Shown: positions 11,341-12,983 of the stretch, one piece after another
Numbering within the stretch: position 1 is the first letter of the stretch
Layout of the letters: every line of letters starts with the position of its first letter
Origin: Tidjanibacter sp.
Lineage (GTDB): Bacteria; Bacteroidota; Bacteroidia; Bacteroidales; Rikenellaceae
DNA length: 37,105 nucleotides
Direction of reading: 5' to 3'
Assembly: GCA_017466345.1 (NCBI GenBank)
Contig: JAFTUI010000015.1
Span: 1-37,105 of the forward strand
Made by a program: the position numbers and the translations under genes
The notes under the pieces: model-generated
What the model was told of the DNA's origin: nothing
The model's input: the letters and a program-made list of their open reading frames with translations, nothing else
Database searches by the model: none

Positions 11341-12099
11341 ATGGCAACAACTAACAAAAAAGCAGCAGAGAGCAACGACTACACAATGCAGGAGCGCATC
11401 AAAGCACTCTATGAATTGCAGAAAATCGACTCCAAAATTGACGAAATCAACAAGGTAAAAGGCGAACTCCCCATTGAGGTTGCCGACCTCGAAGATGAGG
11501 TTGCAGGCTTGCAAACCCGCATCGACAATATCCAAAACAATATAAACGAACTCACTACACTCGTGCGCGAGGCAAAAGAGGAGATCGAGCAGAACAAAGC
11601 AATGATCGCCAAGTATACCGAGCAGCAAAACAACGTGCGCAACAACCGCGAGTTCGATGCTATCGGTAAAGAAATCGAGTATCAGGAGTTGCAGAACCAG
11701 CTCTGCGAGAAACACATCAAAGAGTACACCGCAGCACTGAAAGTGAAAAAACAGCTCTTGGAAGAGGCTGAGGCTGTGAAGGCTGAGCGCGCTGTTGACC
11801 TTGCGGCTAAACGCGAGGAACTCGATAGTATCGATGCCGAGACCGCCAAAGATATTGAGGCTCTCCGCGTTGAGGAGGCTAAGGCTCGCGAGGTTATCGA
11901 TGAGAGGCTCCTTACCGCTTACAGCCGCATCCGCTCCAATGTCCGCAATGGCTTGGCAGTGGTGTCGGTTAAGCGTGACGCTTGCGGTGGTTGTTTCAAC
12001 CGTATTCCTCCCCAGCGTCAGAGCGAGATCCGTCAGGGCAAGAAGATTATCATTTGCGAGTATTGTGGGCGTATACTCGTTTCCTTCCCCGAAGAGTAA
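11341..12099 (+). CDS. Coiled-coil protein with C4 zinc ribbon
   Basis: A 252-residue protein of the CT398-like/C4-type zinc-ribbon family. Residues about 15-185 form a long alpha-helical coiled coil rich in Glu, Lys and Ala. The C-terminal zinc ribbon has CGGC and CEYCGR pairs near residues 217 and 240. Family members in other bacteria have been linked to flagellar or secretion ATPases and to RNA or nucleic-acid binding, but no role is settled in this phylum. There is no signal peptide, so it is cytoplasmic. The stop is followed by an AAAACGATTTT segment and the structured element at 12121. Confidence 0.85.
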   Translation: MATTNKKAAESNDYTMQERIKALYELQKIDSKIDEINKVKGELPIEVADLEDEVAGLQTRIDNIQNNINELTTLVREAKEEIEQNKAMIAKYTEQQNNVRNNREFDAIGKEIEYQELQNQLCEKHIKEYTAALKVKKQLLEEAEAVKAERAVDLAAKREELDSIDAETAKDIEALRVEEAKAREVIDERLLTAYSRIRSNVRNGLAVVSVKRDACGGCFNRIPPQRQSEIRQGKKIIICEYCGRILVSFPEE

Positions 12100-12111
12100 A
12101 AAACGATTTTA

Positions 12112-12204
12112 GCGGGTAAATTTTGCACCGCACTGCGATAGGCGAGTTCCTCATTTGCGCTAAGCAAACTGCGGACTCGCCTTCTTGTTTGGCACAAAAT
12201 TTCC
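12112..12204 (+). repeat. Structured element, copy A (after the zinc-ribbon gene)
   Basis: About 90 bases that start GCGGGT, then TTTTGCACCGCACT (12121-12134). A stem GGCGAGT/ACTCGCC (12141-12147 and 12175-12181) encloses TTTGC/GCAAA (12154-12158 and 12164-12168). The unpaired bases between the two stems are TCCTCA on one side and CTGCGG on the other. CTTCTT follows, and an outer TTTTG/CAAAA pair is possible. Copy B lies inverted at 12331-12410. Confidence 0.75.
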
Positions 12205-12330
12205 TCCGCGAAAATCGTTTTTTTTGGTCGGGGAGAACAGGGTTTACAAGGGTTATGGGGGTTATAGGGGTTACAGGGGTTTCCACCCCTCCCCTTGTTA
12301 TCCCTGTTATCCTTGTTATCCTTGTAACCC
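12205..12330. repeat. Inverted, near-tandem G-rich/C-rich core between copies A and B
   Basis: Units like GGGTTATGG, GGGGTTATA and GGGTTACA (about 12240-12280) face CCTTGTTAT and CCCTGTTAT units (about 12290-12330) that are roughly their complement. An AAAATCGTTTTTTTT segment (12211-12225) matches, inverted, AAACGATTTT just after the zinc-ribbon stop, and may form a large terminator stem with a T run. No gene is seen. Confidence 0.6.
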
Positions 12331-12412
12331 TTGCAAAAGAAGGAGCGACACCGCAGTTTACTCTCGTAAATGAGGGATGTCGCTCTTCGAAGTGCGGTGC
12401 AAAAAGCACCCG
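12331..12412 (-). repeat. Structured element, copy B (after the L25 gene)
   Basis: On the minus strand it begins ACGGGT (about 12407-12412), then TTTTGCACCGCACT (12391-12404 on the plus strand as the complement). The stem is GAGCGACA/TGTCGCTC (plus 12378-12385 and 12343-12350). The inner stem is TTTAC/GTAAA with loop GAGA. The internal loop is TCCCTCA opposite CTGCGG. The stems differ in sequence from copy A at paired positions and still pair. Confidence 0.75.
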
Positions 12413-12425
12413 TTATATGCGTTTT

Positions 12426-12983
12426 TTATTTGCCGGACTGACGAGTAGCAAGAACAGCCACTACCGACATACTTGCGGGCTGCAACATAGTCAGACCCTC
12501 GTAGTGGAGGTCGCCTACGTTGATGGTCTTACCAACGCCAAGGGGAGTGATGTCGATTACGAGCTCGTCCAAGAGGTTCTCCTCCAAGCCCGAAACAGTG
12601 AGTTTGCGGCGAAGAACTTGGAGTTTACCACCGGCCTTAACACCCTCCGAGTTACCAACGATAGCAACGGGGATCTCAATCGATACGGGTTTGCCTGCAA
12701 CTACGCGGAAGAAGTCGATGTGCTGGCAGTAGTCCTTAACAGGGTGGAACTGAGTCTCGCGCATAACGCCTTTCTCGATGTTGCCGTCAATGTTGAGCTC
12801 TACGATGTACGATTTGGGAGTGTAGAGGAGTTTCTTAGCCTCCGAAGCCTCAACGGAGAAGTGGATAGTCTCGCCACCGTTACCGTAGAGTACGCAGGGG
12901 ATAAGGTTCTCGCGGCGGATGTCTTTCGCGCCTTTCTTGCCAAATACTTCGCGTTTAACGCCTTTAATCTGAATGGTTTGCAT
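12426..12983 (-). CDS. rplY: Ribosomal protein L25 (long, CTC/TL5 form)
   Basis: A 185-residue protein of the two-domain L25/CTC family that binds 5S rRNA in the large subunit. The N-terminal 5S-binding domain opens MQTIQIKGVKREVFGKKGAK and continues RENLIPCVLYG. The C-terminal TL5 domain (about residues 95-180) has the VPVAIVG-like IPVAIVGNSEG and the ITPLGVGKTINVGDL segments. Its length is normal for the long form. It is a single-gene unit with its own promoter at 13075-13104, whose -33 box lies in an AAAATGC repeat. The 3' flank is structured element copy B. Confidence 0.93.
   Translation of the reverse strand: MQTIQIKGVKREVFGKKGAKDIRRENLIPCVLYGNGGETIHFSVEASEAKKLLYTPKSYIVELNIDGNIEKGVMRETQFHPVKDYCQHIDFFRVVAGKPVSIEIPVAIVGNSEGVKAGGKLQVLRRKLTVSGLEENLLDELVIDITPLGVGKTINVGDLHYEGLTMLQPASMSVVAVLATRQSGK

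Follow-up and report, generated by a model that had tools for sequence, protein, structure and literature searches.

The window, which is the whole stretch of 37,105 nt that was analysed (Tidjanibacter sp., contig JAFTUI010000015.1), has at its start (1-1118) the end of a 23S rRNA gene together with a 5S rRNA gene. Further on it contains a zinc-ribbon protein gene and the ribosomal protein gene rplY, each with one copy (A and B, respectively) of a structured element at its end. These genes and the parts of both copies are given below, with the evidence for each in brackets.

11341 to 12099, plus strand: zinc-ribbon protein gene (C4, PF02591), with copy A at its end (Pfam)
12097 to 12222, plus strand: copy A, full-length element (inverted repeat I3, fold, match of covariance model R1)
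12098 to 12124, plus strand: 5' outer arm of copy A, which pairs with 12197 to 12223 (inverted repeat I3, fold)
12150 to 12174, plus strand: conserved core of copy A, CTCA - TTTGC loop GCAAA - CTGCGG (core pattern)
12197 to 12223, plus strand: 3' outer arm of copy A (inverted repeat I3, fold)
12333 to 12428, minus strand: copy B, with the 3' outer arm missing (sequence, fold, match of R1)
12351 to 12374, minus strand: conserved core of copy B, CTCA - TTTAC loop GTAAA - CTGCGG (core pattern)
12426 to 12983, minus strand: rplY, ribosomal protein L25 (PF01386, PF14693), with copy B at its end (Pfam)

The sequences that the original prediction had quoted for both copies are present where it had placed them, and the inner fold that it had described as shared by them was also found, but the outermost stem of copy A had been overlooked. 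Copy A is an imperfect palindrome of about 126 nt whose 5' TA coincides with the first two bases of the stop codon TAA (12097-12099), and the 5' TA of copy B likewise coincides with that of the stop codon of rplY (12426-12428, minus strand). The fold of copy A has an energy of -52.2 kcal/mol (z -7.1) and that of copy B of -33.9 kcal/mol (z -2.9). Both cores are inverted relative to each other and about 180 nt apart, and the core pattern (CTCATTTNC-loop-GNAAACTNCGG) has these two matches in the window and none in 100 shuffles. On its 3' side copy B runs into a G/C-rich tract (12240-12332), which is composed of 9-nt units of the GGGTTAYAR type and is itself an inverted repeat (I2). Similar tracts stand in place of the 3' arm in L027, L049 and L069.

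A search of the genome with a covariance model, which had been proposed as a check, has revealed many further copies. The strict core pattern gave 101 matches in the 1.82-Mb genome that includes the window (G000), with none in the reversed control, and 96 of them were kept as distinct. A covariance model (R2) built from 77 G000 copies gave 134 matches in the same genome at E≤0.001. The element is a dispersed small DNA repeat with more than 100 copies in the genome. When the 24 genomes of the genus were searched with R2, with at most 136 candidates scored per genome so that the counts are lower bounds, fifteen genomes other than G000 contained 14-109 matches, one contained a single marginal match and seven had none. 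The core pattern was present in 17 of the 61 genomes searched, G000 included, and these were 16 of 24 in the genus, none of 13 in other genera of the family and one of 24 in other families of the order. The records of related loci are titled Tidjanibacter, Alistipes or Rikenellaceae metagenome-assembled genomes (MAGs), several of them from ruminant guts.

An alignment (A1) of 77 of the 96 distinct copies was used for the analysis of covariation, nine copies being left out by an identity/edge filter and ten by hand, most of which were array members or truncated copies. The claim that paired bases change together, made from copies A and B, holds for these 77 copies, with 91.5% of the cells paired versus 71.9% in shuffled alignments. 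The covariation score was 0.553, compared to 0.207 after shuffling, with none of 500 shuffles reaching the observed value, and it was 0.10-0.14 when the partners were slid; changes on both sides were observed in 25 of the 32 consensus pairs. The anatomy of the element is that of a conserved inner hairpin enclosed by outer stems that change freely and yet remain paired. The inner stem was TTTAC/GTAAA in 47 copies and TTTGC/GCAAA in 30, a set defined by a search pattern that imposes TTTRC and leaves free to vary the stems outside it. At the L065 gene of related genomes the inner stem also appears as CTTAC/GTAAG, CCTAC/GTAGG and CATAG/CTATG, with CTCA and CTGCGG retained in all but one degenerate copy. 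Covariation had been read as the signature of selection on a fold. The covariation itself is strong, but selection is not its unique reading because elements can be exchanged at a site (3 of the 12 occupied sites with both sides anchored, see below), and in related copies pairing may be preserved both by selection and by the exchange of complete units.

The position of both copies as 3' elements of their own genes, in gene orientation, is the prevailing one in the genome. An upstream open reading frame (ORF) of 100 codons or more ends 36-61 nt before the core in the sense orientation in 64 of the 96 distinct copies, and the mirrored antisense arrangement was found once. The placement is not universal as the remaining copies include 12 downstream members of arrays and 19 that are covered neither by the stop rule nor by array membership; in at least eight of these 19 the stop lies 70-75 nt before the core, ahead of an extra 18-nt arm. 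When upstream ORFs of 80 codons or more were considered, the stop was located 49-58 nt before the core in 56 of 79 copies. The palindrome is nearly symmetric and the hairpin alone hardly explains such a sense bias, which therefore suggests either that the core has a strand-specific role in RNA or that insertion is oriented. The lone extra 18-nt left arm precedes the element at L032, L034, L048, L050, L057, L074, L076 and L085; these arms may be what is left of an earlier element, or may stem from recombination of arms.

The stop codons at the element (n = 64) were TAA (38), TAG (25) and TGA (1), and those of other long ORFs in the same loci (n = 114) were TAA (53), TAG (29) and TGA (32), so that TGA is rarer at the element (1/64 versus 32/114, p = 1.8e-6). 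The TAA and TAG stops fit insertion at the TA of a stop codon, and avoidance of TGA would equally follow if the element itself supplied the stop codon. At the right end, TA was counted by reading after about 13 of 40 well-defined copies, with a shift of one base allowed, so that a duplication of TA at insertion is suggested at most.

Occupation of orthologous sites differs from gene to gene. The zinc-ribbon gene carries the element at its stop codon in 3 of 21 orthologues of the genus, and the sequence downstream of the other orthologues is unrelated, often an ordinary hairpin (by eye). The glmM gene has a clear copy in G000, and in G022 the copy is degenerate. The L065 gene, which we take to encode trigger factor and for which a Pfam search gave no match, was found in 19 of the 24 genomes, and the nine closest all carry the element, one of them in degenerate form. 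The arms of the element overlap the last codons of this gene, and with one identical genome left out the left arms match the right arm of the same copy more closely than the right arms from other genomes in 60 of 72 comparisons (0 of 20000 permutations). That the right arm is a templated inverted copy of the host gene end was considered for L065 and dropped as unproven, because similar residues are obtained when the common arm of the element is translated in a different frame (glmM, G000).

A comparison between the sister genomes G013 and G018 has been carried out with 33 gene ends of G013, of which 28 were comparable; three of the 33 probes had no retrieved locus (30 loci for 33 matches) and two ran off contigs. 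The element was present in both genomes at 26 of the 28 gene ends, at a mean coding identity of 0.97, and the inner identity of these 26 shared ends was ≥90% in 12, <75% in 13 and in between in one. The downstream side was anchored from 200 nt on, with the best fit to the own G018 locus in 13 of the 28 cases. These 13 sites anchored on both sides carry the same element in nine cases, a different element in three and no element in one. The different element has the same gene end on one side and the same region downstream on the other, clearly at L337 and L355 and narrowly at L361 (84 vs 69). The empty site (L346 vs L374) is clean in G018 and anchored on both sides; the insertion at L346 is neither at a TA nor at a stop codon, and has AA on both sides. 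At the other 15 sites, recombination between copies and short-read misassembly are indistinguishable. One copy in G018 (L341) is reduced to a plain hairpin, at a locus with its downstream side unanchored. In-place replacement as a general rule has been dropped because the near 50-nt flank is itself a dispersed repeat, and matching 50-nt flanks are thus no proof of replacement. A dispersed unit (ACCGCT..CAAACG..AGCACCAC..CCAAAA..GGGGAAAGCGTC) lies 3' of many G013 and G018 elements (L330, L352, L353, L361 and others) and had confounded the comparison of near flanks.

The same core and placement recur in records from several phyla. At least 117 stretches with the core were obtained in a scan of GTDB species genomes, and the titles among the matches listed include Bacteroidota, Beta-, Gamma- and Zetaproteobacteria, an Arcobacter, Vampirovibrionales, Peribacteria and others; these phylum names are record titles, many of them of MAGs in which contamination is possible. 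Among the matches listed, two boxes outside the searched core are shared, [GT][CT]GTT (TGCGTT-like), for the most part at -23/-24, and GCCT[TC], for the most part between +16 and +18, and both boxes were present in 73 of 119 flanked copies versus 1.4 expected from shuffles. A sense stop was located 45-66 nt before the core in 42 of the 110 copies listed with enough flank, and the antisense mirror in eight; TGA accounted for 5 of these 42 sense stops in other phyla versus 199 of 655 (p = 0.009). In 27 of the 28 full-length model matches, which come partly from the same loci as the 110, a stop within 11 nt of the element end was counted by reading in 19 sense and 3 antisense cases. More than one match was found in each of 12 genomes tried, all chosen as known carriers, with 3 to 36 per genome at E≤0.01; many model matches in Amoebophilus and in a Gallionellaceae genome span the core part only. 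The viral contigs gave four matches only.

A second covariance model (R1) was built from 55 of the 119 flanked copies, as selection for both boxes and ≤80% identity gave 58, of which three were left out; the enterobacterial repeat ERIC was excluded from its training. This model found copy A at 12092-12230 (E 1.9e-8) and copy B at 12333-12387 (E 1.9e-5). No Rfam family was over its gathering score in the copies, and the ten matches at E up to 10 were all far below it.

The most similar known system is ERIC (IRU, RU-1), for which to our knowledge no mover is known. De Gregorio and others (2005) reportedly found that Yersinia ERIC overlaps stop codons in one orientation. ERIC is an imperfect palindrome of about 127 bp with TA ends, compared to about 126 nt for the element, and its inner hairpin (TCA-YTTAC-loop-GTAAR-CTCC) resembles the element core. 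The ERIC boxes TGCGTT and GCCTT are in the same order and at nearly equal spacing as in the boxed copies. ERIC is further alike in that it lies in sense, with its 5' end at a stop codon or close to one, and in that its copy number is high and variable. In contrast, the outer stems are unrelated, the subtype in the window lacks both boxes and the host belongs to Bacteroidota. ERIC has been known since 1990-91 (PMC2229807), and a 2024 review still assigns it to Enterobacteriaceae and Vibrionaceae (PMC10969869). TA ends, 3'-end location and an RNase E effect are described for ERIC (PMC2229807, PMC2759123, PMC10969869), and Yersinia ERIC is described as co-transcribed and as altering the mRNA level through RNase E (PMC2229807, PMC10969869). 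Among the open-licence papers listed for ERIC outside enterobacteria, for stop-codon repeats and for pieces of the core, none was visibly about a cross-phylum family or such a repeat. Other small non-autonomous intergenic repeats, likened here by description only, are QMITE2 (Coxiella), BrickBuilt (Porphyromonas), Correia and RUP; QMITE2 is described as lying mostly in 3' untranslated regions (PMC10969869).

The ERIC of E. coli reads GCGTT, 18 nt, TCACTTAC-loop-GTAAGCTCC, 20 nt, GCCTT, a spacing within 1-2 bases of that of the other copies. The ERIC at L288 forms one long hairpin in which the inner stem has 5 bp, and copy A is likewise a palindrome that folds into a long hairpin. When R1 was applied to the window together with an ERIC locus and a control (38.6 kb), only three matches were obtained, which were copy A, copy B and the ERIC; the last was full length but weak (15.4 bits, E 0.18 in 38.6 kb). 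With the filters off, the top three matches in six loci (5.2 kb) were ERICs (E 0.025, 0.097 and 0.11), and two of the five ERICs were missed. A core-and-box score was 26.9-40.7 in five enterobacterial ERIC loci versus 6.7-22.3 in five negative stretches, and of 1000 shuffles 0, 0, 1, 0 and 11 scored as high as the respective ERIC. With the strict motif expression one of the five was recovered, Pantoea and Klebsiella being off by one spacing base (post hoc). Four of the five ERICs, all except that at L325, overlap the upstream stop or start within about 8 nt of it, in the same orientation, and the preceding genes are ybhI, a DUF1471 gene, an ABC substrate-binding gene and yidC. One ERIC locus (L324) overlaps a TGA stop, TGA being the stop codon of yidC. 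Overlap with stop codons in one preferred orientation is common to the element and ERIC.

The G000 copies include a TTGCACC / GGCAC subtype without the boxes (49/96), copies with the generic boxes (36/96) and copies with neither (11). Copies A and B are of the TTGCACC / GGCAC subtype, in which the core is shared with ERIC and the boxes are changed, and the core-and-box score of copy A was no better than that of 230 of 300 shuffles. Since this subtype lacks the boxes, the tie of copies A and B to ERIC is through the core, the anatomy, the placement, the boxed siblings and the model match. The element looks like a distant relative of ERIC.

These data are best explained, with a probability of about 0.7, if A and B belong to a miniature mobile element (MITE type) that is non-autonomous and ERIC-like and folds at mRNA 3' ends. 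Four other explanations have been weighed against this reading. The copies could be transcription terminators or 3' stability elements of the host, selected in place and spread by recombination only, which would account for two thirds of them being at gene 3' ends in sense, for the T run that 33 of 96 copies have in their right arm, for the retention of the element at the L065 gene in all nine closest genomes with left arms that match their own right arms, and for the copy shrunk to a plain hairpin at L341, where the downstream side is unanchored. Non-mobile elements of this kind are nevertheless unlikely given the clean empty site of L346 vs L374 and a patchy distribution, both within the genus, where 17 of 24 genomes have the element (one by the single marginal match), and across loci, as at the zinc-ribbon gene. 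A sense bias of 64:1 is also unexpected of a plain terminator with a nearly symmetric hairpin; a terminator scan of 11900-12600 found none, and 63 of the 96 right arms have no T run.

The original prediction had also offered readings as attC-like or REP-type hairpins, or as the two ends of one transposon, and none of them is supported by the wider data. Integron attC sites, or a relative of them recognised as single-strand hairpins by a tyrosine recombinase, resemble the element as long imperfect hairpins that directly follow an ORF in sense and keep their structure as the sequence changes, and a mismatch recurs near the outer end in the alignment (by eye). No integron integrase (TIGR02249) was over the cut-off in any of the 24 genus genomes, housekeeping genes are among the neighbours and the GCGAG arm type has no AAC/GTT boxes (by eye), all of which makes this identity improbable. 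Matches resembling tyrosine recombinases were below the cut-off in all 24 genomes, and such an enzyme may be a candidate mover. A transposase of the IS630 type (DDE_3, PF13358) was not found in G000, and in the genus it was over the cut-off in 0 of 24 genomes, with weak matches in three. REP-type palindromes moved by a Y1 (RAYT) transposase are dispersed extragenic hairpins in high number too, but REPs are described as 20-40 bp long (PMC3733652) and the element is about 126 nt with a fixed inner core. Moreover, Y1_Tnp (PF01797) was not found in G000 (95.6% complete) and occurs in one of the 24 genus genomes, which has no copies, and this origin is therefore very improbable. The inverted order of A and B, with their cores close together, had suggested the terminal repeats of one palindromic transposon. 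They are the only inverted pair in the 100 listed places, in which 13 neighbouring pairs less than 400 nt apart share the same orientation, and as the remaining copies stand alone this proposal is refuted almost beyond doubt.

For a mobile element of the ERIC-like type, the copies would be spread by a putative enzyme acting at TA and would also be exchanged by recombination. The transcript is predicted to fold into a long hairpin with the stop codon in its 5' arm, for which reason the element would be tolerated or favoured in sense at 3' ends, being mildly useful at most. A terminating ribosome would open the hairpin, and the element might then act on mRNA decay or on 3'-end formation, by analogy with Yersinia ERIC.

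A bolder proposal is that ERIC is one branch of an old superfamily present in many bacterial phyla, in which insertion itself, and not survival alone, is directed in sense to the TA of stop codons, mobilisation being thereby linked to transcripts or to ribosomes at termination. It is considered speculative and, as a whole, rather doubtful. A wider superfamily would provide many independent cases for finding the enzyme, and would make the stop-codon rule testable, that is, whether insertion is aimed at stop codons or copies survive there.

Two minor observations refer to the surroundings of the copies in G000. Eight of the 100 listed copies are less than 500 nt from a contig start (C12, C13, C14, C17, C19, C22, C29), and the repeats probably break the assembly of this genome. 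Tandem repeats of GTCTAACG followed by CAATAGTCC are located directly 3' of the element at L062, L077, L086, L087 and L089, as if a second repeat type travelled with the element or targeted the same 3' ends.
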